In this document: piece by piece, positions 2,413-62,283 of the stretch | How the letters are laid out: every line of letters starts with the position of its first letter | How positions within the stretch are numbered: the first letter of the stretch is position 1 | NCBI RefSeq assembly: GCF_000144645.1 | Contig: NC_014377.1 | Location: forward strand, 62,001-126,000 | Direction: 5' to 3' | DNA from: Thermosediminibacter oceani DSM 16646 | GTDB lineage: Bacteria; Bacillota; Thermosediminibacteria; Thermosediminibacterales; Thermosediminibacteraceae | DNA length: 64,000 nucleotides | Made by a program: the position numbers and the translations under genes | Notes under the pieces: generated by a model | Seen by the model: only the letters and a program-made list of their open reading frames with translations | Told to the model about the DNA's origin: nothing | Database searches by the model: none

Positions 2413-3168
2413 ATGAGAGTCCGTATCCATTTTGAGCCCGTCACACTTGGAACCAGTATATATTACCCTTATTACCTGCAGACAGCGTTGTACTCCCTGC
2501 TTGACGGCGAGCTAGGTACATGGATGCACGATAAGGGGCTGGTACTGGAGAAGCGAAGATTAAAACCAATATGTTTCAGCCGTTTGATGGGAGAATACAA
2601 ATTAGATAGGGAAAGAGGTATTATTTACTTTCCGAAAGGTGCGGCACTGGTAGTTACCTCGCCTATTTCGGAAATTTGTCAAAGTCTTTTGACGGGGCTT
2701 TTGAAAAGAGGCGAGATAATCTTAGGGAAATCTTCTTTTCCGGTATCGAAAGTGGAAATAGCAGATCCAAAGGTCAGCGGTAGCAGCATTTTAGTTAGGA
2801 CTCTTTCTCCTATAACTGTATATTCGACGATGTTGAAGTTTGATGGATCAAAATACACTTGTTATTTTTCTCCAAAGGATTCCGAATTTGTATCTCTCTG
2901 CCGGGATAACCTGGTTCGGAAGGCGCGCGCTTTGGGATGGGAAGAGAATCAGGATTTTGAATTAAATATAGAATTTAAAGGGGATCCCAAAACTAATATG
3001 GTTAAATTCAAAAACAATTTTATTAAAGGATATAGCGGCTACCTTATGATTTCTGGGCCTACCAGGTACCTTAAGCTCGCCCTGGACTGGGGCTTAGGGG
3101 CTAAAAACAGTGCTGGGTTTGGCTGCCTAGAGATTACAGGAGGTGGGAATCATCAAGATAGAATTTGA
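2413..3168 (+). CDS. cas6: CRISPR-associated endoribonuclease Cas6 (first copy)
   Basis: A 251-aa RAMP protein that cuts the CRISPR precursor transcript at each repeat. The C-terminal glycine-rich loop is clear (GLGAKNSAGFG). An N-terminal histidine near residue 39 in WMHDKG followed by KRRLK is the likely catalytic site by analogy with other Cas6 proteins. It is the first gene of the cas operon, and GGGAGG precedes the ATG. The other Cas6 in this window (at 19.6 kb) shares the pattern MHxxG...KRRxK...FSRL but is clearly diverged, so they are not a recent duplicate. Expected targets are the repeats of the array 8 kb downstream. Confidence 0.92.
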   Translation: MRVRIHFEPVTLGTSIYYPYYLQTALYSLLDGELGTWMHDKGLVLEKRRLKPICFSRLMGEYKLDRERGIIYFPKGAALVVTSPISEICQSLLTGLLKRGEIILGKSSFPVSKVEIADPKVSGSSILVRTLSPITVYSTMLKFDGSKYTCYFSPKDSEFVSLCRDNLVRKARALGWEENQDFELNIEFKGDPKTNMVKFKNNFIKGYSGYLMISGPTRYLKLALDWGLGAKNSAGFGCLEITGGGNHQDRI

Positions 3169-3207
3169 TGCAAACTAATTTTTATTAAAAAAGGGTGAAA
3201 ATGGAAA

Positions 3208-5267
3208 ATGTTGGTAGATAGCCTTATTAGACTCGGTAAAGTTTTAATGAGTTTTCCTCATTCGCCACGAGCAATAGTAAAAGAGATTTCTGCCCTGGGT
3301 GACCCACTCGCAGGAGATTTTCTTCAAAGAATTTACATAGTAGAGGTATACCGCAATCCTGAGCCGAAGATAGTTTGCAGTCCTACTATATGCTGGGGGG
3401 ATTTTGAGGATGCTGGAGGGAAAAAATCAAAAAAGAGCATTTTTAGGCCCGATTTTGAAAGGGCCATCGGTACCCCATTCTTTCTTCCCCAGGGAGGCAA
3501 TCGGAGACAACCGCAGGGCTATTACCCGGTTCCGGTATACATAGTTTATGATGAGGACTTCAAGGAATTTTCCGAAAATCCCGAAAAAGTTGTCAGATTC
3601 CTGAAAGGCAGGTTTGCCAGAACGGAAGGTGCAGCTTTAACCGGGGATGAGTTGATGGTATGCGCTGAAAGTATATCACGAAGTATACGTGAAACGAATA
3701 TTTCCGAAAAAAGGAACTTGAAAGCACTGATAGCAATATGCATAATTGATGAAGACTCTCCTTACCGGTTAAAACCTTCCGGAGTTAAGATAGATGAAAG
3801 GATAGAATTCAAGGTCACCGAAAGTTTCGCTTATCCTGGCATGGCTGTTTATACCGACCTTACCAAAATCCTGGACAGGCTTTGGAAAGCAAAACTTACT
3901 GAAGGCGCGGAAGCTGGAAAGATCGATAATGGAATATGTGTAACGTGCGGAAAGATTGACAAACTCGTTTCAATTTATAACAAATCGTGGCCGCTTTTTC
4001 TCCCTACCTGGAGTTGCCCGCTTCCTCAGTTAAGTGCCAAAAAGAAGTTGAACCTGGCCGAAAAAACCGGTGGCCTATGCGAAGATTGCTATAAAGCTCT
4101 GACTTACGGGGCAAGTGCTTTCAGAAGCATGGAAAAAGATATTCCGGGATGGCTTACAAAAGGCTATTCGCTCCTGTTGACAGCCCTGGTGGAAGGGAAA
4201 ATAAAAAAGCGGGGGACGCGTCGGTCAAAGTAACGGGATGCGTATATCCCGCGCCGGTAGACATGGCACTTTCCGAAGAAGATATGAAATTTTTAGGCGA
4301 AGAAATTTCGCTGATGGTATCAAGGGAGCATGCCGCTGGAAGAAGGGTAAGGGATATCCAGTCGGTGGTCGGCTTCGAAAGCCAGATATCTGAAGAAAAT
4401 CTTCAAGATGCTCTGCGGTTTTACATCGTATATTATTCTGGAGACAGGAGCAAGGGTGATGTGCACCTGAGAGCTACAATGGAAGATGTGCTTCCTTCTA
4501 TCTTGATAAAACTAGACGATGTTGCAAAAAGCACGGTTATGTCGGTTGCCGAGTTATCGCGAGAGCTTCCCGGTAGTAAAAACGAGGATCTTTACGGCCA
4601 AATTAGAAGCCGTTACGGTTCAATACCATGGCTTCTCGCCAACGCCTATGGGCCGGGTTATATGTGGCAAACGCTGGAAAAGGTAATAACCAGAAAGAAG
4701 CTGGATCAAGGAAGTTTTGTAACAGGCTGCGGGCACAGAATGTTAACCTTAAGTAGAAGTTGGCCTGATTCTAAATGGAAGATATTTGACGAGGTGCTTT
4801 TCTTCTATGGTTTTGCCAGTTTTCTGTCAATATACCATTCAACTTTGGGCATAGAAGGGGGTATGTGTAAATTGAGCGATTGGAAAGAGCTAAGGAAATT
4901 GGTGGTGGAAACTCCGGCGGAGGATATGGTTTTGGATACTGTTGAAAAAGTTGGATTTGCAGCGGGTTATGTAATACAGGAGTTCAGCAGGAGATATTAT
5001 GCGGTAAAGGCAAAAGATTTTATAAAACACCGGGTTATGGTTTTCGGCAGCAGTCTCTCACCGGATGTGATATGGAGTAGGGGGCTGGCTAGGCTGGAAG
5101 AATACGCTAAAAACCTGGACATTTATATGGAACCGGAACTCAGCAAAAAGAATGCCGTTACAATGCTGGCCTACAACCGGCTTCGGGACAAGATTAAAGC
5201 TGAAAAGGATTTATTTATAGCTTCATTCTGGAGTGGATACGCGCTTTCGGCTAAAACATCTGATTAA
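3208..5267 (+). CDS. cas8b: Cas8b large Cascade subunit, read through a -1 frameshift
   Basis: Two overlapping reading frames (3208-4233 and 4149-5267) together encode one Cas8b, the type I-B large subunit that recognises the PAM. The first frame ends soon after the zinc-finger region (CVTCGK ... CEDCYK, about residues 249-295). The second continues with the all-helical C-terminal half. The overlap contains A AAA AAG in the exact phase for a -1 slip (4203-4209). Slippage there gives a continuous 686-aa protein reading ...KIKKAGDASVK... The 0-frame stops 8 codons later at 4233, leaving a 341-aa N-terminal product. An SD-like GGAAGGG lies just upstream of the heptamer and a 6-bp hairpin lies downstream. 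Alternatives are a true gene-breaking indel or a sequencing error in the A-run. The start ATG is preceded by AAGGGTG. Confidence 0.8.
4191..4251 (+). promoter_or_regulatory. candidate programmed -1 frameshift element in cas8b
   Basis: SD-like GGAAGGG (4191-4197) is followed after 5 bases by the heptamer A AAA AAG (4203-4209), the same heptamer used in E. coli dnaX. The 0-frame TAA is at 4231-4233. A 6-bp hairpin CGGGAT/ATCCCG lies at 4234-4251. The hairpin starts 24 bases after the heptamer, further than in dnaX, so the structural stimulator is the weakest part of the case. Confidence 0.5.
4926..5267 (+). CDS. possible internal Cas11b small subunit (nested in cas8b)
   Basis: Some type I-B systems make a separate small subunit from an internal start within cas8b. 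Here an in-frame ATG at 4926 follows GGAGG with only a 2-base gap and would give a 113-aa helical protein (MVLDTVEKVGF...) ending at the cas8b stop. Another in-frame ATG at 4863 follows AAGGGGG with a 1-base gap and would give 134 aa. Both gaps are short for efficient initiation. No separate cas11 gene is present in the operon. This is inference from family behaviour plus size. Confidence 0.3.
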   Translation: MVLDTVEKVGFAAGYVIQEFSRRYYAVKAKDFIKHRVMVFGSSLSPDVIWSRGLARLEEYAKNLDIYMEPELSKKNAVTMLAYNRLRDKIKAEKDLFIASFWSGYALSAKTSD

Positions 5268-5291
5268 AAACTAAAAAAGGAGTGATGTTTA

Positions 5292-6242
5292 ATGCCTGAA
5301 ATCCCAAGGACCGGAGAAATACTGTTTATAAAGTGCGTTAAGGATGGAATCCCCAACCGTGATCCCCTTAACGACAGCGATGCCAGAAGGATATTTGGAG
5401 AGGATGACGGCAGAATATCCTTAAGTGACGTTAGCATCAAACGGGATGTCAGAGATTATATCCAGCACCGTTTTCCAGATGGAGGCCCGGATAAAAAGTA
5501 TCATATCTTTGTTCGGCAGGAAAAAGGAGAAAACGGTAAACTTAGGGACAGGAAAGAACTTGCGAGGAAGATTATCGAAGATGTTTCTGGTGAAGATTCA
5601 CCAGATAAAAAGAAGACCCTTATGTCGGCAGCTTTCGATGTCAGGGTGTTCGGTGCTGTTTATAGTGTGGAAAAAGAAAGTTTCAACCAGACAGGGCCGG
5701 TTCAGTTTGGCTGGGCTCATTCACTTCATCCCGTTGAAACTCGATACGTGCAGGGAACCGTAGTAATTCCTTCAGAGGATGCGAGCAAAGGGCAGGGTTC
5801 CATTTGGACTACATATATAGTTCCATTTGCGGTATTTTGCATGCCAGGAGTCATAAATCAAAGTATCGCTAACGAGACTGGCGCGACCCGGGATGATATA
5901 GAACTGTTGCTGGAGGCGCTATGGAAAGGCACTCTGCACAGGCAGGCCAGGGGTAGAGGCATACAGCAGCCTTGCTTCTTGCTTCACGTAGAGTATTCCG
6001 ATCCTTTCTTCCGCATAGGATACCTGGAAGATTACATCTCCCTGGAGCCCGGGCGCGAAGCGTGGCTGGGAGGCAACCCTCCGACATCACTGGAACAAGT
6101 GAGGTTAAATGTGGACCGTCTGGCAGAAGTGCTGGACCCGAACGGGGAATTCGGCAATAAGATTGAAAGGATACGGTACTGGGTAAATCCTGCCTTGACG
6201 ATCAGCTGTGAACTCCCTGGAACCCGCGAAAAAATATGGTAG
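5292..6242 (+). CDS. cas7: Cas7b (Csh2-type) Cascade backbone protein
   Basis: A 316-aa RAMP protein of the Csh2/Cas7b type, several copies of which line the crRNA in the Cascade complex. It has the typical N-terminal block (KCVKDGIPNRDPLN), the SAAFDVRVFGAVYS strand and the FNQTGPVQFGWAHSLHPV region. The ATG has AAAAAGGAG upstream, and it lies 24 bases after the cas8b stop. The gene is intact, so the frameshift in cas8b is the only lesion-like feature in the effector part of the operon. Confidence 0.9.
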   Translation: MPEIPRTGEILFIKCVKDGIPNRDPLNDSDARRIFGEDDGRISLSDVSIKRDVRDYIQHRFPDGGPDKKYHIFVRQEKGENGKLRDRKELARKIIEDVSGEDSPDKKKTLMSAAFDVRVFGAVYSVEKESFNQTGPVQFGWAHSLHPVETRYVQGTVVIPSEDASKGQGSIWTTYIVPFAVFCMPGVINQSIANETGATRDDIELLLEALWKGTLHRQARGRGIQQPCFLLHVEYSDPFFRIGYLEDYISLEPGREAWLGGNPPTSLEQVRLNVDRLAEVLDPNGEFGNKIERIRYWVNPALTISCELPGTREKIW

Positions 6243-6280
6243 CGGCGCCGGGATGCAAATTTAAGGGCAGGTGAAAAAAC

Positions 6281-6979
6281 TTGAAACTGCTTGTCTTTGA
6301 ATTGCGCGGCGATATTGCACATTTCCGCAGACCAGATGGGATAGTAACGCACCCTACGTACCCTGCCATGCCAAGGACCGTGCTTTGTGGTCTGATCGCA
6401 TCTATTCTTGGGAAGAGCGTGCTGGATGGAGAAAACTGGATGGGATATTCCATACTCAGTCCCGTTCGCACTGTAACCCAAGAAATGTCAATGCTTGGTA
6501 AGGGTTGGATGGGCAACAGCGGCGACTATTTTAACCGACTTACATCAATTCAGCTGATTGTAAACCCTCACTACCGCGTGTATTATGCAGGAGACCATTT
6601 TGAAACGCTTGTAGAAATGATCAGAGAAAGGAGGAGTGTTTTTCATACCTATCTCGGATCTGCTTTTTGCCTGACATTCCCGAGGTTTACAGGCGTAATC
6701 GATGCTGAAGAGATATCACCGGCACCAGGAGATATCCTCACCGCAATTACGATAGTTCCCACAAATATAGTTGAACGTTTGATCACCGAAACAGGAGAAA
6801 GGTATATACCGATGAGAGGAGCTCGTTATACAGTTGACCGCGACAGGAATTTTAAAGGAACTCTTAATTTTATCATTGAAGAGTCCGGTAGACCAATAAA
6901 GTTTAGAACAAGAGACTCTGCTGGTTCGGTCAATTATCGTATTCTGAAAGTTGAAAATGGAGTGATTTGCCTGTGGTGA
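6281..6979 (+). CDS. cas5: Cas5b (RAMP) Cascade subunit
   Basis: A 232-aa RAMP protein that binds the 5' handle of the crRNA. It begins MKLLVFELRGDIAHFRRPDG, the usual Cas5 start (strand, then a short loop with aromatic and basic residues), and has the PAMPRTVLCGLIASILG helix typical of subtype I-B. TTG is the start codon, with a GGGCAGG site upstream. Its end overlaps the start of cas3 by 13 bases, which suggests coupled translation. Confidence 0.88.
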   Translation: MKLLVFELRGDIAHFRRPDGIVTHPTYPAMPRTVLCGLIASILGKSVLDGENWMGYSILSPVRTVTQEMSMLGKGWMGNSGDYFNRLTSIQLIVNPHYRVYYAGDHFETLVEMIRERRSVFHTYLGSAFCLTFPRFTGVIDAEEISPAPGDILTAITIVPTNIVERLITETGERYIPMRGARYTVDRDRNFKGTLNFIIEESGRPIKFRTRDSAGSVNYRILKVENGVICLW

Positions 6980-9408
6980 TTCCTTTCAGGGAGTGCGTTG
7001 CCCGACCCAAGTCCGGGGACGGGAATCCCAACCTTCTTACTGACCATCTCTTTGCGGTTGCAAAATTTATGGGTGATCCCAAAGGAGGCGATGAAAGCAG
7101 GCTGAGATTCCTGGCGGGTCTCTGCCACGATGTCGGTAAGGCTACAAAACGATGGCAAATGTATATCTTATCTAAGGAAGAAGGAAGGGTGGTTGCCTCG
7201 GGCGGCAGCCACTCTCCTCTAGGAAGTATGATATTTTTCGTTTGCAGCGAACAGCTGGTGACTAAAGATTTGCCCAGGCGGTTCAGGGAGTATCTGATTA
7301 CGCAACTCACCCTGGATATTGCAGGGCATCACGGTTCAATCAAAAATATTGACCCGGCATGGCCACCGTGGGAAGAGGCTCTTTTATCTGCCGAAGGGGT
7401 TTATCCCTATGAAACCGTAGACCTTGACGGATTTTTCGATTTTGTGAGGGAATATTTCCCTGAAATAACACTTACATCTCGTAGCTTTGCAGATAGGCTT
7501 CAAGGGATAGATAGAAGATGGGCGGTTGTTGCAGATAAAGCCCTCGGCTATGCCAAACGCTATATTGATAACAGCGCGGATCGGGACTCTGCAGCAGCCG
7601 GCTTAATAATGAGAGATCGAACGTCGGCCATGATTTCAGCTGACAGGTTTCATGCTGCGGGCTTAAATTTTGCTTTTTTCCATCCGGAAGAAGCCAGAGT
7701 GGCTATAAATAATCTTGCGGAGGAATGCAGTCGCCTGCAAAAAAATGCTGCGCCGGAGACTTTACGAATTGTAAAACTCAGAAACGATCATCAAAAGGAA
7801 GCATTGGAGACGTACAGGACTTTCCCCGATAGGTTAATTTATTCACTGGAGCTTGCTACCGGACTTGGGAAAACGCTCACCGCCTTGAGGATAGCACTGG
7901 AGGCCGTGGCTTCAGGCAAGTGCAGTCGTGTAATCTATGTTGCTCCTTATATATCAATTTTGTCTCAGGCTACCAATGTCATCCGAGAAGCTACGGGTAT
8001 ATCCGATATAATTGAACATCATCATCTATCATTTCTCGATATAGATTACGAGCACCTGAGGTCAGAGGAAGATGGAGCCTTTCTTATTGATTCATGGCAA
8101 TCCAAAATCGTAACTACTACCTTCAACCAGTTTTTTCTGGCGCTATTCCCAACAAAGGCACAGCACACGGTTAGGATACAGGCTCTAAATAATGCCTTTG
8201 TAATAATTGACGAACCTCAAATTATTGAACCGAAAGCATGGGCTGCCTTCTTGAAGACTCTCGAAGCGGCTGCGAAACGATTGCATTTTCAGTCGATTTT
8301 ATGCACAGCGACACTTCCACATGCTTCGGATTATCTTAACGAAGAATATATGTGTCTTTCAAGGGGAGATTCTTTAATTCCGCGTTATATTATAAAAACT
8401 TTGGAGGGTAAATGGGATGCCCAGACTCTCGCGGAGCTGGCTGTGAAAAAGTTAATGGAAAAAGGTTCTGTAGCGGTGATTTTAAATACCGTTGCTGATG
8501 CAGCCAGGGTTTACATGGCGGTGAAAGACCTCATCTTACGGGGGTACTTTGAAAATATAACCGGAATAGATATTTTTAACCTGACGGGATGTATGACTCC
8601 CCTTCACAAATCCGCATGGATCTCAAGAATAAAGGATTCATTAAGAAGAGGAAAAAAATGTATAGTAGTCTGCACTCAGATTCTTGAAGCGGGTGTAGAT
8701 TTGAGTTTTCGGTGTGTAATAAGAGCACGTCCTGTTATACCTTCCGTAATTCAAGCCGCGGGACGCGGCAACCGGCATGGGGAAGGGGATCCGGCTGAAG
8801 TACTCGTTGTTGATTTTGTAAGGGATGACGGTGAGGACTCAAGAAAGTATGTTTACAAAAATCCTATATTCAGGGAAGTGACAGATGAACAGCTTGAAAT
8901 TTGTAAGGAATTTTCGGAAAAGGATTCCAGGGAGATAATAGAAAACTTTTATAGAGAAGCTTTTAAAAGAAACCCACCGACTAGGAAAATGCAACTGATA
9001 TATGAAGCGGCTATGGGGCAATGGTCCAGACTAAAAGAAATTGAACCCTTTGAAGGTGATTATCCTAAAGTGATGGTATTCGTGCCACGAGTATTTAAAG
9101 GCTCCGGTGGTCCGGACATCCCCGAAATAATTCAGCGCGCTATGAAATATTTCGGCATATCCGGGGTTTCGGATATATATCAGCGCTACCTTGAAAAGGG
9201 ATTCTGGAAGAGTTTGTCCTTTCGGGATAAAAAACTCTTCATGGCGTTGATCGAGCAGTTCTGCGTGTGCGTAAGTGTCAAAAGAGCTGATTCCATTGTA
9301 AGAATACCCGAAGGTGCCTTTATAGGCAGTCTGGTGGATGATAGAATTTACAGCGAAGATACGGGAATGGCTCTTGCTGAAGATAGTACGGAATTTCGGA
9401 TGTTTTGA
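6967..9408 (+). CDS. cas3: Cas3 helicase-nuclease (HD domain + SF2 helicase)
   Basis: This 813-aa single-chain Cas3 degrades target DNA after Cascade binding. The N-terminal HD nuclease shows LCHDVGK (H54-D55) and AGHHGS (about residue 121). The helicase part shows Walker A GLGKT (299-303), the DEAD-like box DEPQ (about 415), motif III TATLP (about 448), and ILEAGVD and AAGRGNRHGEG (about 597) as motifs V-VI. All key residues are present, so interference is not lost here. The start codon is TTG within the end of cas5. The C-terminal end overlaps an upstream extension of the cas4 frame, but I place the cas4 start after the cas3 stop. Confidence 0.93.
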   Translation: MPVVIPFRECVARPKSGDGNPNLLTDHLFAVAKFMGDPKGGDESRLRFLAGLCHDVGKATKRWQMYILSKEEGRVVASGGSHSPLGSMIFFVCSEQLVTKDLPRRFREYLITQLTLDIAGHHGSIKNIDPAWPPWEEALLSAEGVYPYETVDLDGFFDFVREYFPEITLTSRSFADRLQGIDRRWAVVADKALGYAKRYIDNSADRDSAAAGLIMRDRTSAMISADRFHAAGLNFAFFHPEEARVAINNLAEECSRLQKNAAPETLRIVKLRNDHQKEALETYRTFPDRLIYSLELATGLGKTLTALRIALEAVASGKCSRVIYVAPYISILSQATNVIREATGISDIIEHHHLSFLDIDYEHLRSEEDGAFLIDSWQSKIVTTTFNQFFLALFPTKAQHTVRIQALNNAFVIIDEPQIIEPKAWAAFLKTLEAAAKRLHFQSILCTATLPHASDYLNEEYMCLSRGDSLIPRYIIKTLEGKWDAQTLAELAVKKLMEKGSVAVILNTVADAARVYMAVKDLILRGYFENITGIDIFNLTGCMTPLHKSAWISRIKDSLRRGKKCIVVCTQILEAGVDLSFRCVIRARPVIPSVIQAAGRGNRHGEGDPAEVLVVDFVRDDGEDSRKYVYKNPIFREVTDEQLEICKEFSEKDSREIIENFYREAFKRNPPTRKMQLIYEAAMGQWSRLKEIEPFEGDYPKVMVFVPRVFKGSGGPDIPEIIQRAMKYFGISGVSDIYQRYLEKGFWKSLSFRDKKLFMALIEQFCVCVSVKRADSIVRIPEGAFIGSLVDDRIYSEDTGMALAEDSTEFRMF

Positions 9409-9445
9409 AGATTATCCTTGTATGCTACTAAGGGAAGGATTAAAA

Positions 9446-9952
9446 GTGTTAAACGAAGAGATTAACATTACCGGAACACTAGTATGGTATTACTTTATAT
9501 GTCCGCGTCAGGTATGGCTTATGTCCCATAATATAAATCCCGATGAAGATGATGAAAATGTGGCGATTGGACGGTTTTTACATCAAGAAAGTTACGCAAG
9601 AGAGCGGAAGGAAATAAGTTTTCACGGTGGGAAAGTGGACGTTTTGGGGACCCGAGAAGGACAGCTCGTCATTGCGGAAATAAAAAAGAGTTCAAAAGCA
9701 GAACGAAGTGCGAAAATGCAATTGGCTTTTTATCTTTTTGAACTAAGAAAGCTCGGAATAGAGGCAAAGGGAGAACTCAGATATCTCGAGGAAAAACGAA
9801 AGGAGCAGATTGTTTTGGACGAGCAACTGACAAGAGAAGTGGAAAATGCCATAACCCGTATCCTGAAGTTGATGTATGAGCCAGTACCTCCAAAGCCAGA
9901 AAAGATAAGATGGTGCAGTAATTGTGCATATAGAGAATTCTGCTGGGCTTGA
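9446..9952 (+). CDS. cas4: Cas4 exonuclease (Dna2/RecB-like, Fe-S)
   Basis: A 168-aa Cas4, which trims prespacers and helps set the PAM end during acquisition. One cysteine near the N-terminus (YYFICPRQ, C19) and three at the C-terminus (C157, C160, C166, in WCSNCAYREFC) make the four-cysteine iron-sulfur site. The nuclease core includes KVDVLG and VIAEIKKSSK. I chose GTG at 9446 because GGAAGG lies upstream at good spacing and the protein then starts in the usual place. The frame is open back into cas3, but those codons do not look like Cas4. Confidence 0.92.
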   Translation: MLNEEINITGTLVWYYFICPRQVWLMSHNINPDEDDENVAIGRFLHQESYARERKEISFHGGKVDVLGTREGQLVIAEIKKSSKAERSAKMQLAFYLFELRKLGIEAKGELRYLEEKRKEQIVLDEQLTREVENAITRILKLMYEPVPPKPEKIRWCSNCAYREFCWA

Positions 9953-10004: not shown

Positions 10005-10997
10005 ATGAAAAAAGCGATTTATATTTTTTCAAGCGGAGAACTTAAAAGAAAAGACAATACTCTTTACCTTGAAACCGAAGACCGGAAAAACTATATACCC
10101 GTGGAAAATACCAGTGAGATCTATATTTTTGGAGAAGTAAACATAAATAAGAGGTTTCTGGAATTTGCGTCTCAAAACCAAATAATAATTCATTTTTTTA
10201 ACCATTATGACTACTATGTGGGATCCTTTTACCCGCGGGAGTTTCTTAATTCAGGCTACATGATTTTGAAGCAGGCCGAATACTATTTGGATAAAGAAAA
10301 AAGGCTAACAATAGCACGGGAGTTCGTAAGAGGTGCGGTAAAAAATATATTACAGGTCATAAGGTATTACATAAATCGCGGAAAAGATCTGGTTAAAATC
10401 GATGAAAGGATCCGCGAACTTGAGGGCAGAATAGATGATTTTAATGAAATTGATGAGCTCATGGCTATAGAGGGCAATATCAGAGAATGTTATTATTCTT
10501 CGTTTGATAAAATATTACAAAATCAAGACTTTAAGTTCTGCAAAAGGACTACAAGGCCACCGAAAAACAACTTAAATTCGCTTATAAGCTTTGGAAATTC
10601 AATGATTTATACGATCGTGCTTAGCGAAATATATAAAACACACCTGGACCCTCGTATCGGTTTTCTCCATGCTACCAATTTCAGGAGGTTTACCCTGAAC
10701 CTCGATGTTGCAGAGATTTTCAAGCCGATTATAGTCGACAGGGTAATACTTACCCTTATCGGCAGAAAGGTGATAACCAAAGACGATTTTGAGCAAGATT
10801 CTGAAGGGTTGATTATTAAAGAAAAAGCCAAAAGGGAGTTTATAAAAGAACTGGAAGAAAAACTATCAACAACTTTCAAGCATAGGCAAATTGGTAAAAA
10901 CGTTTCATATAGAAGACTTATAAGGCTCGAGCTATATAAATTGGAAAAGCATCTCATGGGTGAACAAGAATACAGCGCCTTTGTAGCCGGCTGGTAA
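10005..10997 (+). CDS. cas1: Cas1 integrase, type I-B
   Basis: A 330-aa Cas1, the catalytic subunit of the spacer integrase, full length for subtype I-B. The metal ligands are visible: E156 in AIEGNIREC, H222 in LHATNF, and D234 in NLDVAEIFKP. The spacing fits other Cas1 proteins. AAGGAG lies 11 bases upstream of the ATG. The gene lies between cas4 and cas2 in the usual adaptation module. Array evidence in this window (repeated capture of the same protospacers with different 3' ends) suggests that this module was active in the past. Confidence 0.95.
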   Translation: MKKAIYIFSSGELKRKDNTLYLETEDRKNYIPVENTSEIYIFGEVNINKRFLEFASQNQIIIHFFNHYDYYVGSFYPREFLNSGYMILKQAEYYLDKEKRLTIAREFVRGAVKNILQVIRYYINRGKDLVKIDERIRELEGRIDDFNEIDELMAIEGNIRECYYSSFDKILQNQDFKFCKRTTRPPKNNLNSLISFGNSMIYTIVLSEIYKTHLDPRIGFLHATNFRRFTLNLDVAEIFKPIIVDRVILTLIGRKVITKDDFEQDSEGLIIKEKAKREFIKELEEKLSTTFKHRQIGKNVSYRRLIRLELYKLEKHLMGEQEYSAFVAGW

Positions 10998-11018: not shown

Positions 11019-11282
11019 ATGTTTATAATACTTGTATATGACGTGGGCGAAAAAAGAGTGGCAAAGGTGTTAAAAATCTGCCGAAAATATCTTACCTGGG
11101 TTCAGAATTCGGTCTTTGAAGGAGAAATAACGGAATCGGCGTATAAAAAATTAAAACTGGAACTGAAAAGAGCAATAGTGGAAGATGAAGATTCGGTTAT
11201 TTTTTACATATTAAGGACGATTAAATATTCCGATCGAGAAATGCTTGGGAGAAAAAAGGGCGGAGAGGAAATATTTCTATAA
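11019..11282 (+). CDS. cas2: Cas2 adaptation protein
   Basis: An 87-aa Cas2, which dimerises and bridges Cas1 dimers during spacer integration. It starts with the typical ferredoxin-like strand MFIILVYDVG and has the expected RKYLTWVQNSVFEGEIT block and IFYILRT strand. The GGAGG site is 13 bases from the ATG, longer than usual. It is the last gene of the operon. A perfect hairpin follows 5 bases after the stop codon, and the array leader comes next. Confidence 0.95.
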   Translation: MFIILVYDVGEKRVAKVLKICRKYLTWVQNSVFEGEITESAYKKLKLELKRAIVEDEDSVIFYILRTIKYSDREMLGRKKGGEEIFL

Positions 11283-11287
11283 AAAAT

Positions 11288-11331
11288 GTCGTCGACCTCC
11301 GGTGATGCAAAAACCCCCGGAGGTCGACGAC
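11288..11331. repeat. perfect 15-bp inverted repeat between cas2 and the CRISPR leader
   Basis: GTCGTCGACCTCCGG (11288-11302) and its exact reverse complement (11317-11331) enclose a 14-base A-rich loop. On the plus strand no T-run follows, so it is not an ordinary terminator for cas2. Read on the minus strand it is followed by ATTTTTT, so it could terminate antisense transcription coming out of the leader towards the cas genes. Confidence 0.85.
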
Positions 11332-11464
11332 AAAGGCTAATTACGCTTAAAGTCAGAATTAACACTGTTTCAGAAGGATTTTTTTAGTTAGTGGCGAAAT
11401 AAATATAGAAAATTAAATAAACGTTTTTTCTGCTTAAAACTTTAATTTTTTCATTATTTCATGG
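11332..11464 (+). promoter_or_regulatory. CRISPR leader
   Basis: 133 bases of AT-rich, non-coding DNA between the hairpin and the first repeat. It is on the cas1-cas2 side, and the repeat ends in GTTGAAAC on the plus strand, so the array is most likely transcribed left to right from here. No convincing -35/-10 pair could be assigned. Confidence 0.7.
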
Positions 11465-14400
11465 GTTACTAGCTTACCTATGAGGGGTTGAAACGAGCTG
11501 ATATAACTGATAATGCTGGTGGAATAGCTGAGTTACTAGCTTACCTATGAGGGGTTGAAACCCCCTACTTTAAATTTGTCCGCTATGCTCGCTTTCGGTT
11601 ACTAGCTTACCTATGAGGGGTTGAAACTCCAGTAACTCCTGTATGACTTTCTTCTTCATATCTCGCGTTACTAGCTTACCTATGAGGGGTTGAAACCCGC
11701 CTCTCGGTATCCATTCCGCTCCAGTAGTGCAAAAGTTACTAGCTTACCTATGAGGGGTTGAAACGAATCCGCCCCTAATTCTTTTGATACAGAGCCGAAA
11801 AGTTACTAGCTTACCTATGAGGGGTTGAAACCCGCCTCTCGGTATCCATTCCGCTCCAGTAGTGCAAAGTTACTAGCTTACCTATGAGGGGTTGAAACAT
11901 ACCTCATCCTCGCCAGTCAGATCGTTCCAGAAGGGCGTTACTAGCTTACCTATGAGGGGTTGAAACAGGTATCTGACTATGCTTTCTAATGCTGAGATAA
12001 CAAGGTTACTAGCTTACCTATGAGGGGTTGAAACGCGATATATTCGCTGTTTTTCTTGAGGAGGAAATATCGTTACTAGCTTACCTATGAGGGGTTGAAA
12101 CGCGATATATTCGCTGTTTTTCTTGAGGAGGAAATATCGAGTTACTAGCTTACCTATGAGGGGTTGAAACCACCTCGCTCCCGGCGGCACGCATAAGACC
12201 ACATTTCTGGGTTACTAGCTTACCTATGAGGGGTTGAAACATGGCATCACGATCAAGACCCCGACCGAACTAAAGGTCGTTACTAGCTTACCTATGAGGG
12301 GTTGAAACGCGGTTCCCGTAGAAAAATATAGGGAACTCCAATAGCTGTTACTAGCTTACCTATGAGGGGTTGAAACCTTCTCCCCTACTCTCCCCTACCC
12401 TACCCTGTTGTGTGTTACTAGCTTACCTATGAGGGGTTGAAACAGATTATTTATTTCTTCCTCAAAGTGATGGTAAAAGTTACTAGCTTACCTATGAGGG
12501 GTTGAAACAAGAAATACCTGCACGCAGGTGGACTGCAGAAAGTGCGTTACTAGCTTACCTATGAGGGGTTGAAACTCCGATCGTATGGCGACCAGTTCCT
12601 TCGCTCTCTCCCAGTTACTAGCTTACCTATGAGGGGTTGAAACCGATTGGCGGGTCAAGAGAGTATGACAAGAGCAGAAGCGTTACTAGCTTACCTATGA
12701 GGGGTTGAAACTTGAAAAAGCTATACGACCGTCCATATAAATACTCGTGTTACTAGCTTACCTATGAGGGGTTGAAACCGATTGGCGGGTCAAGAGAGTA
12801 TGACAAGAGCAGAAGCGTTACTAGCTTACCTATGAGGGGTTGAAACGAGCAATCGAAACAGCGATAACTGTTGGCGCTCCAGTAGTTACTAGCTTACCTA
12901 TGAGGGGTTGAAACAGGATGATATCCGGTGATGTTCGGGCACTTACCGGGTTACTAGCTTACCTATGAGGGGTTGAAACTATTTCTCCCGCTCACGCTTG
13001 AGGCGTTCGGAAAGAAGTTACTAGCTTACCTATGAGGGGTTGAAACCGGTTATAGTCGGGCTCTCAATCATAGGCGTTGCTAAGTTACTAGCTTACCTAT
13101 GAGGGGTTGAAACCAAGACAGAGAGCCGAGGAATACACGAGGCGAGCTTGTTACTAGCTTACCTATGAGGGGTTGAAACATCTATTGCTACCGCGTCGAT
13201 TTCGGCTTCTATTTCTTGTTACTAGCTTACCTATGAGGGGTTGAAACTACATACTCCCCCATGTGTAATGGGATTGGGGAGTATGAGTAGTTACTAGCTT
13301 ACCTATGAGGGGTTGAAACAATTCTAATCATAGAATAGCATAGATGGAATAAGAAGTTACTAGCTTACCTATGAGGGGTTGAAACCTCGATTTTTTCTTC
13401 AATAGCCGCCGAGGCGATGGAATTGTTACTAGCTTACCTATGAGGGGTTGAAACATTCATTCATATTGACACTCTCCTTTCGGTGTTCAAGTTACTAGCT
13501 TACCTATGAGGAGTTGAAACCTAAAATGCTTTTCTATTGTTTCGGGTGAATATATGCGGTTACTAGCTTACCTATGAGGGGTTGAAACAGCGGAAGGGCC
13601 CGAAGGCCCTGGCCGGGATTCTCGGTTACTAGCTTACCTATGAGGGGTTGAAACTACCCACAAAGGAGGGATTTTACAATACACCCCCGGGTTACTAGCT
13701 TACCTATGAGGGGTTGAAACGGGTATGACGAATTTGCAAAAGAATTAGGATTCGATTGTTACTAGCTTACCTATGAGGGGTTGAAACTTTCGTAAACCGA
13801 TTTAAAAATCCTTCCTTCGCCGCGTTACTAGCTTACCTATGAGGGGTTGAAACTAGGTAATGTATTTGCAACCGCCGCAACCTTTTTCTTTGTTACTAGC
13901 TTACCTATGAGGGGTTGAAACAAATTTCCGTTTATGTGAAAATATCTTTTTCGTAAAGTTACTAGCTTACCTATGAGGGGTTGAAACGAGTACTGTTTTT
14001 TATTTTTTTAAGGTAGTACTAAAGTTACTAGCTTACCTATGAGGGGTTGAAACCCGCTCCTGAAGTGCCTAATATCGCTGGCGGCGTCGGCGGGTTACTA
14101 GCTTACCTATGAGGGGTTGAAACTCGAAGAAAAATAGCCGCCAGCGTCGGCGATTTCAGTTACTAGCTTACCTATGAGGGGTTGAAACCCTTCCTGCCGA
14201 GCCGCAAATATTCGGTGCTGGTCTCGTTACTAGCTTACCTATGAGGGGTTGAAACCGGGGACACCGGTCACCCAGGGGCCGTTAGACTTCTTGTTACTAG
14301 CTTACCTATGAGGGGTTGAAACACGACATGGAATACAATTTCATCTAAGCTAGGGGATATATGGTTACTAGCTTACCTATGAGGGGTTGAAACTAAGATA

Positions 14401-16146
14401 GATATGCAGCATCCTCGTATTCTTCGCACATTGTTACTAGCTTACCTATGAGGGGTTGAAACCAGTTAGCGGCGGCACCAGCGGCAGCTTCCTCTTCGTT
14501 ACTAGCTTACCTATGAGGGGTTGAAACGGGCATGACTCTGGGAGAAAGGGGAGCGTGACACCCCGTTACTAGCTTACCTATGAGGGGTTGAAACGCATAT
14601 CAGCACTTACGTGAGAGTTCTGAATTAGGCCGTTACTAGCTTACCTATGAGGGGTTGAAACGCGTAAAATACGCACGAGCAAGAACCCGCACGACATTTT
14701 CAGTTACTAGCTTACCTATGAGGGGTTGAAACTCATTGAAATAGTCGAAAATTCCGCTGGTATCACACAGTTACTAGCTTACCTATGAGGGGTTGAAACG
14801 CTGTAACTGGTGGCTCTTATGTAACTTTCTCAATATGTTACTAGCTTACCTATGAGGGGTTGAAACCCCACTGGTATTTCTATTGCGCCCCGTTTAGGTG
14901 GGCGTTACTAGCTTACCTATGAGGGGTTGAAACAAAAAATTTTTGGCATGGCGTCACACTCCCTCCGCTCGTTACTAGCTTACCTATGAGGGGTTGAAAC
15001 GCAAAATCGTCCAATGTAAGATTATGTTCTTCTCTAAGTTACTAGCTTACCTATGAGGGGTTGAAACGAAAATGACATGATTGAACGGAGTAGAAAGGTA
15101 GTCAACGTTACTAGCTTACCTATGAGGGGTTGAAACTCTGCATGACAAAAGCATAGAGTTGCTTTATGTCTGCGTTACTAGCTTACCTATGAGGGGTTGA
15201 AACGTGCCTGGAACACTTTTTACCCGTTACTACGGATCATTTAGTTACTAGCTTACCTATGAGGGGTTGAAACTATAAACAAACAGTAGGGTTGGAACGA
15301 CCCGAATTTAGTTACTAGCTTACCTATGAGGGGTTGAAACTGAGAAAAATAACGATGATTATACTAATAACCCTTTTTGTTACTAGCTTACCTATGAGGG
15401 GTTGAAACCGCGTATTACGCCCTCCATAAATTTCATAAGTGGCCAAGGTTACTAGCTTACCTATGAGGGGTTGAAACCTGCTGCCCTCATGAGAGGATGG
15501 AATGCCATTCTGAGTTACTAGCTTACCTATGAGGGGTTGAAACCCGTGCTGGCTCCTTCTGCACCGAGGGTTTCACCGACGTTACTAGCTTACCTATGAG
15601 GGGTTGAAACCCAGCAAGCTATTCACCGAACGGGAGCGAGGTTTTGGTTACTAGCTTACCTATGAGGGGTTGAAACCCTCCACTTCGCCCGCAAGTATAT
15701 CGCCATAGTTTAGTTACTAGCTTACCTATGAGGGGTTGAAACTAATGAACCACTGAAAGCGCGAATGCGCCGTAGGTGGTTACTAGCTTACCTATGAGGG
15801 GTTGAAACTCTGCATGACAAAAGCATAGAGTTGCTTTATGTCTGCGTTACTAGCTTACCTATGAGGGGTTGAAACGTGCCTGGAACACTTTTTACCCGTT
15901 ACTACGGATCATTTAGTTACTAGCTTACCTATGAGGGGTTGAAACGCAGAAGCGATGGGCAAAAGCATTGCCGAAGCGAGAGTTACTAGCTTACCTATGA
16001 GGGGTTGAAACTGTCGAAAGAATCCAGGGTTTCAAGCCATTTCGGGAAGGTTACTAGCTTACCTATGAGGGGTTGAAACGACAAAATCTCAATTCCAGTA
16101 TACCACAAAGGAGGAAGTTACTAGCTTACCTATGAGGGGTTGAAAC
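11465..16146 (+). CRISPR. type I-B CRISPR array, main block: 70 repeats, 69 spacers
   Basis: The 30-bp direct repeats begin GTTACTAGCTTACC and end GAGGGGTTGAAAC. By direct reading I count 70, the first at 11465 and the last at 16117. Spacers are 35-42 nt, mostly 36-38. All repeats are identical as far as I can see, except the one at 13491, which has GAGGAG for GAGGGG. The 8-base 5' handle after Cas6 cleavage would be GTTGAAAC. Duplicate spacers: numbers 4 and 6, 9 and 10, 18 and 20, and the pair 55-56 repeated as 65-66. Spacer 27 is 42 nt and self-complementary. The array continues after an IS3-type insertion. Confidence 0.97.
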
Positions 16147-16243
16147 CCAGGTCGCTAATCAACGACACAGGCACTTTTTCTATTTAGCCCCCTAATAGAA
16201 TTGGAGAAAAAGTTTGATAATGTTACAATGTTAATTAGGGGGT

Positions 16244-16561
16244 ATGAAATTGAAAAAGAAACGTTATGACCGAGAATTTAAGGAGCAAGTTGTAAGAGAA
16301 TGCCAGGAAGTTGGTAATATTGCGTTAGTGGCTAGAGGACATGGACTCTCCAAAAATACGGTATATAACTGGCTTCAAGCAACAAGAAAGAATGGTTCTG
16401 TTATCCCTCTGCCACGCGATGTAAACCAAAGGCTTTTAGAGGCAGAAAATAGGCTAGAAAGTTTAGCTAGGGAGAATGACCAGCTAAAAAGACTTGTGGC
16501 GGAAAAAGAACTAGAACTGGCTATTTTAAGAGAATTACGGGATCGAGTAAACCCTCAGTAG
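16244..16561 (+). CDS. IS3-family transposase OrfA (helix-turn-helix)
   Basis: A 105-aa protein with an N-terminal helix-turn-helix (KKKRYDREFKEQVV ... HGLSKNTVYNW) and a C-terminal leucine-zipper-like coiled coil (RLLEAENRLESLARENDQL). This is the usual DNA-binding OrfA of IS3 elements. The next frame, orfB, is in the -1 phase and overlaps the orfA stop codon, as expected for IS3 elements that make an OrfAB fusion by frameshifting. Confidence 0.9.
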   Translation: MKLKKKRYDREFKEQVVRECQEVGNIALVARGHGLSKNTVYNWLQATRKNGSVIPLPRDVNQRLLEAENRLESLARENDQLKRLVAEKELELAILRELRDRVNPQ

Positions 16562-17515
16562 CCGACAAAGTCGCAATTGCCAAAAGGTGGGTGGCGAAAG
16601 GATATAGTCTCTACCTCGTTCTGGGCTTTGTCGGCCTTGCGCCATCCACCTTTTACACATATGAAAGTAAAAAAGAACCGACTGTAACCGCTGATAACCA
16701 AGCTAAAGCTAAAGCGGGCAGGCCAAAAACGCAGTTTTCTTTTACTCTGGATGGCAAGAAGGTTGCCGATGAGCAGATTAAAGAATGGCTATGTGAATTG
16801 GTTTGTCAAGATGGTTTTCCTTATGGCTATAAGAAGCTTACGGCAGCTTTAGTAGAGGACTATGGCCTTGTCATCAACCATAAAAAAGTTTACCGGCTAT
16901 GTAAGGAACTGGATATTCTTAAGCCGCAAAGAATTTGTAAACCAAAGCATCCAAGGCGCCTAGCTCAACGCATTGAAGTAACCGGGCCTAACCAACTCTG
17001 GGAAATGGATGTAAAATACGGATACATACACGGAGAAGAAAGATTCTTTTTTCAGCTTTCGCTTATTGATGTATTTGATCGTTGTGTGATTGACTACCAC
17101 TTAGGTTTAACCTGTACAGCCAAAGACGCCCGTAGGGTGCTGTGTAAGTGCCTTAAAGAAGCGTGGTATTAAACCAGGAATGCAAATGCCAAGGTTAAGA
17201 ACGGATAATGGTCCTCAATTCATTGCTAACCTTTTTGCTGCAGCCTGTCGGAAACTTGGCATCGTTCATGAACGAATACCGGTAAAAACCCCAAACTTAA
17301 ATGCTCATATTGAAGCCTTCCATTCAATTCTTGAAGATGAATGCTATAGCCGACATCAATTTGCAAGCTACGCGGAAGCCTATGAACAGATTGCTTGGTA
17401 TATGGATTATTACAATAATCGCCGCCGTCATGGGAGTCTTAACAATATGGCTCCCCAAAAATATTATCAAGCTATTATAAGTAATTCTATAAAACCTAAA
17501 TCTTTGGTAGTATAA
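16561..17515 (+). pseudogene. IS3-family transposase OrfB, frameshifted (DDE integrase)
   Basis: This frame is open from the orfA stop (ADKVAIAKRWVAKGYSLYLV...), though a separate start at GTG 16591 is possible. It carries the rve-type DDE core: D in LWEMDVKY, D in LRTDNGPQF, E in AHIEAFHS. The reading frame breaks near 17150-17160. The first frame ends in KCLKEAWY and a stop, while the +1 frame reads LKKRGIKPGMQMPRLRTDNG, the normal continuation. The second and third catalytic residues are therefore out of frame with the first. Unless rescued, the transposase is inactive, so the element is a fixed disruption of the array. Confidence 0.85.
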
Positions 17516-17547
17516 TCTCCAAAATTAGGGGGTCAAGGCGTTTTCAT

Positions 17548-17697
17548 GTTACTAGCTTACCTATGAGGGGTTGAAACATAATATCCCTATCAGTATACAT
17601 TTCAGGGAGTTCTAGTTACTAGCTTACCTATGAGGGGTTGAAACATGAATCAGGAAAATACTTCACTCCCACCAAAAACAGTTACTAACCTACCTAT
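17548..17697 (+). CRISPR. distal CRISPR block: repeats 71-72 and the left half of repeat 73
   Basis: After the IS3 element two intact repeats (17548-17577 and 17615-17644) enclose spacer 71 (37 nt), and spacer 72 (36 nt) follows. At 17681 a further repeat starts as GTTACTAACCTACCTAT and then stops matching. Its other half is found 1.6 kb away at 19279, beyond an IS110 element. This is the oldest, leader-distal part of the array. Confidence 0.92.
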
Positions 17698-61809: not shown

Positions 61810-62283
61810 ATGCCAAGAAAGGGTCATGTTGCGCGCAGGGATGTACCCGAGGATCCCATATATAAGAGCAAGCTGGTGACCAAGCTCATCAACAAACTCA
61901 TGTACGACGGGAAAAAGAGCGTTGCCCAGAAGGCTTGCTACGGGGCTTTTGAGATAATCAGGGAAAAGACGGGCAAGGACCCCCTTGAGGTCTTCCAGGA
62001 GGCCTTAAAAAACGTAATGCCCGTACTGGAGGTAAGGCCTCGCAGGGTGGGCGGTGCTACCTATCAGGTGCCCATCGAGGTTCCCGAGCACAGGAGGCTT
62101 TCTCTGGGTATCAGGTGGCTTGTGGAATACGCCCGCCAGCGCACTGACAAAAAGACCATCAGGGAAAAGCTGGCTGCCGAGATCATGGATGCGGCCAACG
62201 GCACCGGCGGCGCCGTTAAGAAGAAAGACGAAACACACAGGATGGCAGAAGCCAACAGAGCCTTTGCCCATTACAGGTGGTAA
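61810..62283 (+). CDS. rpsG: 30S ribosomal protein S7
   Basis: A 157-aa S7: [20 protein letters not shown], the central [17 protein letters not shown] block that binds 16S RNA, and the ending [20 protein letters not shown]. The length is normal. AGGAGGG is well placed before the ATG. fusA follows after 58 bases. Confidence 0.98.

Follow-up and report, generated by a model that had tools for sequence, protein, structure and literature searches.

The type I-B locus and its array

The window, that is the whole stretch of DNA analysed here (64,000 nucleotides, positions 62,001 to 126,000 of the single-contig, 2,280,035-bp genome of Thermosediminibacter oceani DSM 16646), carries a locus of clustered regularly interspaced short palindromic repeats (CRISPR) in which two pairs of spacers begin at the same base and end at different ones. 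The cas genes, the leader and the array all lie on the forward strand, and the genes precede the array in the order cas6-cas8b-cas7-cas5-cas3-cas4-cas1-cas2. The last three, cas4 (9338-9952; NCBIfam TIGR00372, 104 bits), cas1 (10005-10997; TIGR03641, 466.7 bits against a cut-off of 304.1) and cas2 (11019-11282; TIGR01573), are unbroken frames with family matches, assigned by PADLOC to Cas4b, Cas1b and Cas2b, respectively. The leader (11283-11464, final bases ...TTTCATGG, neither A nor GA) separates cas2 from the first repeat, which makes the leader-facing side of a spacer its 5' end.

The main array (11465-16146) consists of 70 copies of the repeat GTTACTAGCTTACCTATGAGGGGTTGAAAC and 69 spacers. 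Near its distal end it is interrupted by an IS3-family element (16147-17547, with frames at 16244-16561, 16591-17172 and 17180-17515), beyond which two further repeats enclose one more spacer (17548-17644), making 70 spacers for the whole array. Spacer length ranges from 35 to 42 nt, with a mode of 37. The repeats are uniform except for a variant at 13492-13521, which ends in GAGGAGTTGAAAC. A gap of similar size, 1.4 kb, occurs in another array of the same genome, array c (L087, 2934-4368).

Twin spacers with a common 5' end

Spacers 4 (11697-11734, 38 nt) and 6 (11832-11868, 37 nt) are identical over 37 nt counted from the 5' base, and spacer 4 alone carries an extra A at its 3' end. Spacers 9 (12035-12071, 37 nt) and 10 (12102-12140, 39 nt), which are adjacent, both start with GCGATATATTCGC and are likewise identical over 37 nt; the common part ends in ...AAATATC, after which spacer 10 alone continues with GA. 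The coordinates and the 37-nt identities thus bear out the original prediction, which had described the two pairs as the same sequences but for a 3' A and a 3' GA. The 30-nt repeats that flank the four spacers are all exact, which excludes an artefact of repeat-boundary assignment, and chance cannot account for an identity of 37 nt within either pair.

Beyond these two pairs, the array holds twins of equal length. Spacers 18 and 20 (12644-12681 and 12779-12816), with spacer 19 between them (12644-12816 in all), are identical over their 38 nt and may be either copies or repeated captures. The two-spacer block 55-56 (15137-15243) recurs exactly and in the same order as 65-66 (15809-15915), and the stretch that spans both copies (15137-15915) is read as the product of a duplication by recombination. 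The premise that copying by recombination gives equal lengths holds, and copying is evident in the array as well. Two positions separate 4 from 6, one separates 9 from 10, and two separate the equal-length spacers 18 and 20. When pairs are drawn at random among 69 spacers, both of two pairs fall within two positions in 0.3% of draws, and all of three pairs in 0.02%.

The fixed end is the side of the protospacer adjacent motif

Spacers of the window array (w) and of the three other arrays of the genome (b, c and d) were compared with the sequences of relatives, and nine of them match elements there at 80% identity or more. In seven of the nine (w8, w46, w57, b40, c30, c10 and c3), the triplet T[TC][AG], written TYR below, stands directly 5' of the match: TTG for w8 and c30, TTA for w57 and c10, TCG for b40, TTG or TCG for c3, and, among the ten copies printed for w46, TTG in six and TCG in four. 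No evident motif was seen in the 3' flanks of the mapped targets. TTA, TTG, TTN and TCN are among the type I-B protospacer adjacent motifs (PAMs) listed in PMC8482600. The position of TYR indicates that the end common to the twins lies on the PAM side. Weaker matches are preceded by TTG (c6), TTA (b5), CAG or CAA (c1), GTT (c5), TGG (b2) and TTT (w41).

The same nine matches bear on the 3' ends. Spacer and target agree at 17 of 19 positions from position 36 onwards, against 262 of 297 at positions 1-33. Agreement at the terminal bases is on a par with that of the rest, which means that the 3' terminal bases of a spacer are normally target sequence; for the twins themselves this is indirect evidence.

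The target of spacer 46 (14528-14564) belongs to an element present in several copies in four related genomes (G004, G005, G006 and G007), with TTG or TCG before it. Two genomes of a single genus carry elements related to each other (L097 and L098 of G012; L103 and L104 of G013), both with the targets of c1, c3 and c10; the target of w1 lies in the G012 element and that of w8 in the G013 element. These elements are likely relatives of the invader.

Spacer 24 (13047-13083) and spacer d7 of a distant array (L040, 14381-14416) cover the same target on opposite strands, and spacers b22 and d9 overlap with an offset of 3 nt. An apparent self-target of spacer 24 in the chromosome, at 1,644,388, was rejected, as the site is spacer 7 of CRISPR array d.

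No protospacer of 4/6, 9/10 or 18/20 was found in phages, plasmids, viral contigs or relatives. A blastn comparison of the array with phages and plasmids returned only matches to the IS3 element, matches of low identity that seem to be caused by the repeat, and a match of 36 nt (92%) in a short phage record. Viral contigs, searched with exact and codon-wobble patterns of the three pairs, yielded no target; of the three wobble frames possible for each spacer, the search covered two each for 4/6 and 9/10 and one for 18/20. Two contigs that came up in it were rejected, with 23 of 39 bases matching. Nor did targets of the pairs appear in 41 genomes of relatives, 22 of the order, 26 of the class and 398 of the phylum, where some weak phylum-level matches were rejected. 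Finally, when the 154 spacers of the four arrays were compared with prophage and other stretches of G006, G007, G012, G013, G003 and the genome itself, no match of at least 66% was obtained for 4/6, 9/10 or 18/20.

The same asymmetry in related arrays

Arrays beside relatives of Cas1b were collected from 21 contig loci and 80 stretches, together with those of T. litoriperuensis and the remaining arrays of the T. oceani genome. The 80 stretches were chosen from a longer list of places with a Cas1 match, mostly the closer matches lying away from contig ends. The final set comprised 95 arrays with 4,261 spacers at 73 loci. Spacers were compared within each locus, the arrays of our own genome being pooled, which gave 218,641 pairs, and a pair was retained when the overlap was at least 30 nt with at most one mismatch. 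Second-copy arrays (L173 and L181), overlaps on opposite strands and array fragments in which fewer than three spacers were usable were removed from the counts, as were, for having more than one mismatch, pair 2/7 of L139, a pair in L146, the tandem pair of L180 and the diverged pair of L140. The direction of each array was taken from a repeat motif and agrees with the strand of cas1 in every array that contains ragged twins, that is, twins that share one end only.

Both ends are shared in 79 pairs (53 in blocks and 26 single), the 5' end alone in 13 pairs, and the 3' end alone in none. The 13 ragged pairs represent 11 protospacers: two each in the window, L139 and L161, and one each in L111, L124, L129, L140 and L152. 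The pattern is thus found in loci of seven genomes besides DSM 16646, and a first survey of 885 spacers, from which ragged pairs had seemed a peculiarity of the window array, was overturned by the larger one. If either end were equally likely to be kept, the one-sided chance that all 11 protospacers keep the 5' end would be 0.0005 (2^-11); leaving out the two of the window, it is 0.002 for the remaining nine of nine (2^-9). At L161, one protospacer is present as spacers of 36, 37 and 35 nt with nested 3' ends, in three separate arrays (873-2161, 4665-6437 and 6845-9191) of a single genome.

Terminal differences were also set against internal ones by gapped comparison of the 259 non-identical pairs that share a 10-mer. 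One near-identical pair with a clean internal insertion or deletion (indel) was found, in an AAAG tandem repeat of L180, and one diverged pair with both gaps and mismatches (L140), versus the 11 terminal cases.

In two equal-length pairs (spacers 125 and 140 of L130; spacers 90 and 158 of L164), one spacer is offset from the other by a single base at each end. They look as if the PAM end had slipped and the length had then been measured from it. In L112 (spacers 80 and 88) and, across two arrays, in L180, the same genome holds spacers that are identical over their full length and oppositely oriented.

Probable independent capture and its alternatives

We consider it very probable that a type I-B Cas4-Cas1-Cas2 machinery captured the protospacer of 4/6 and that of 9/10 twice each, independently. 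The PAM-adjacent end (5'-TYR) would be fixed to the base, probably by Cas4; the opposite end would be trimmed to a variable length, within the 35-42 nt seen in the array, and joined at the leader-repeat junction as the spacer's 3' end. With one end fixed and the other loosely trimmed, captures of one protospacer would start at the same base and stop at slightly different ones, and the extra A and GA would be bases of the target. The proposal that a fixed 5' end and a variable 3' end reflect independent integration with a defined PAM side, which was already part of the original prediction, is supported by the 5' PAM in seven of nine mapped targets, by the 11 of 11 ragged protospacers and by the paucity of internal indels. 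Two independent captures in this array would, by computation, agree in length in just 21% of cases. Since the twins lie at or next to each other, both captures probably took place during a single episode of exposure to one invader; the data fit captures from one infection or from several. Repeated capture in succession argues for hot spots or for a common pool of prespacers.

A number of observations weigh against independent capture. The extra A and GA are unmatched to an actual target, because no protospacer of either pair was found. Spacers 4 and 6 differ by one A, which lies in a short run of A, and part of the genome sequence comes from 454 reads (PMC3035372); this makes 9/10 the stronger pair. 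Two of the nine mapped targets lack TYR, namely w1 (ATA), whose match carries seven mismatches, and w64 (TAA or TAG), which is mismatched at its first bases. Arrays b and c, the source of four of the nine mapped spacers, have related repeats and may be served by a different Cas1. Lastly, an invader of 40 kb would offer some thousands of TYR sites, taking one in 16 positions per strand, and with equal odds for each the choice of the same site twice in neighbouring positions would be very rare, so that capture hot spots must be assumed.

The alternative that survives best, although we regard it as unlikely, is that spacers were duplicated within the array, through recombination or misalignment during replication, and that a small indel then arose where spacer and repeat meet. 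Duplication does occur, as the exact block 55-56 = 65-66 and the 53 of 79 equal-length survey pairs lying in blocks attest, and the one-A difference between 4 and 6 within an A run is what such an indel might leave. Both indels would, however, have had to fall exactly at the 3' junction, with about 38 places available to each (probability 0.0007), and the GA of spacer 10 is no copy of neighbouring bases. Across the 95 arrays, 11 protospacers vary at the 3' terminus and none at the 5' terminus only, with a single clean internal indel. Slippage within an array is also hard to reconcile with the three lengths found in three different arrays of L161, which a common source sequence explains.

Still less probable is an error in the reference sequence. 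Sanger, Illumina and 454 data were combined in its assembly (PMC3035372), the difference between 4 and 6 lies in an A run, and the nearby cas8b contains a one-base frameshift; the error rate given in the same report is nevertheless below 1 in 100,000, the GA of spacer 10 is not a homopolymer change, and ragged pairs are present at loci of seven further genomes. Least probable of all is that the same prespacer was used each time and that the attack of Cas1-Cas2 fell one or two bases inside the leader: the new spacer would then likewise be altered at its 3' end alone, as the order of integration implies (PMC9699676), but a leader ending in GG should yield G or GG rather than A and GA. Elsewhere among the ragged arrays, the extra bases are unlike those before the first repeat, except in L129, where the extra AA faces an upstream AAAA in a stretch that may not be a leader (L140, whose pair has a mismatch, was unscored).

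Interference genes

The genes for cas6, cas8b (two overlapping frames), cas7, cas5 and cas3 occupy 2413-9408 and match type I-B profiles of NCBIfam and PADLOC. Positions 1-304 of the PADLOC Cas8b profile are matched by 3208-4230, and positions 304-655 by 4149-5264. Compared with the single 688-residue frame of T. litoriperuensis (L063, 3200-5266), cas8b (3208-5267) is split by a one-base deletion, either a real mutation or a sequencing error. Cas7b, Cas5b, Cas3 and Cas6b are all represented; the Cas7/Csh2 and Cas5h matches fall under the NCBIfam cut-offs, and the best PADLOC models are those of I-B. Judged from its sequence, with Cas8b in a split gene, these four proteins, a cas4-cas1-cas2 set with Cas1b and a 5' PAM, the system is assigned to type I-B. 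If the frameshift is a real mutation and old enough, the broken cas8b frame could have allowed an invader to persist while adaptation continued.

Relation to known adaptation systems

A PAM end fixed by Cas4 and a loosely trimmed PAM-distal end are a mechanism already known; what this analysis contributes is the use of ragged twins as a mark of re-acquisition within a single genome, and a survey in which the raggedness is PAM-distal in 11 of 11 cases. The pattern agrees with the ends of Escherichia coli prespacers, whose PAM-distal 3' ends coincide with the protospacer boundary or stop 1 nt before it in about 60-70% of fragments (PMC9699676), with the model in which leader-side integration takes place first and by the non-PAM end (PMC6519985), and with the new spacers of 34-40 bp in the type I-B system of Clostridioides difficile (PMC8406132). 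Work on Cas4-Cas1-Cas2 processing in type I-C (PMC6519985), and on other Cas4 systems, similarly describes a precise PAM end, first integration of the non-PAM end at the leader and adjacent cas4-cas1-cas2 genes; our case is of subtype I-B and is inferred from natural twins, whereas the type I-C processing was measured in vitro. Naive acquisition in C. difficile shares the spacer size, the 5' PAM and the use of Cas1-2-4, with a PAM described as CCN (PMC8406132) instead of the TYR of T. oceani; the accessible part of that report makes no mention of a protospacer taken up again with another end. The shifted ('slippage') spacers of types I-E and I-F (PMC4117759) also show imprecise ends, but there it is the PAM-side end that shifts, by 1 nt, while in the T. 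oceani twins this end is fixed.

SpacerPlacer, like the present analysis, tells duplicated from re-acquired spacers; in the accessible part of its description, almost identical spacers share one label and ragged ends are unused, and re-acquisition is rated rare: of 805 candidates for duplication, 8 were classed as reacquisitions and 7 as independent insertions (PMC11472070). In the I-C system of Legionella, one protospacer is reported to have given rise to two spacers through independent acquisition (PMC5071653). Our literature searches, with most subscription journals outside reach, found no paper in which ragged ends serve as a criterion of re-acquisition. In a Haloarcula I-B system, spacer size is said to depend on the terminal sequence of the protospacer.

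What ragged ends may tell

Duplicate spacers are usually taken as copies made by recombination, and a ragged end would separate a second capture from a copy within one genome. We lean, if only slightly, towards the view that ragged 3' ends are a general single-genome mark of re-acquired as opposed to copied spacers in Cas4-containing type I-B arrays, that re-capture is commoner than duplication-based reconstructions assume, and that capture hot spots are strong, since the same protospacer is held at neighbouring positions. If this is true, the 11 ragged protospacers in 4,261 spacers would correspond to roughly 15 re-captures once those of equal length are counted, and re-infection or capture hot spots could be counted through ragged ends from sequence alone. 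Natural arrays also lend support to the experimental picture of type I-B spacers, with an exactly set PAM side and an inexact opposite side.
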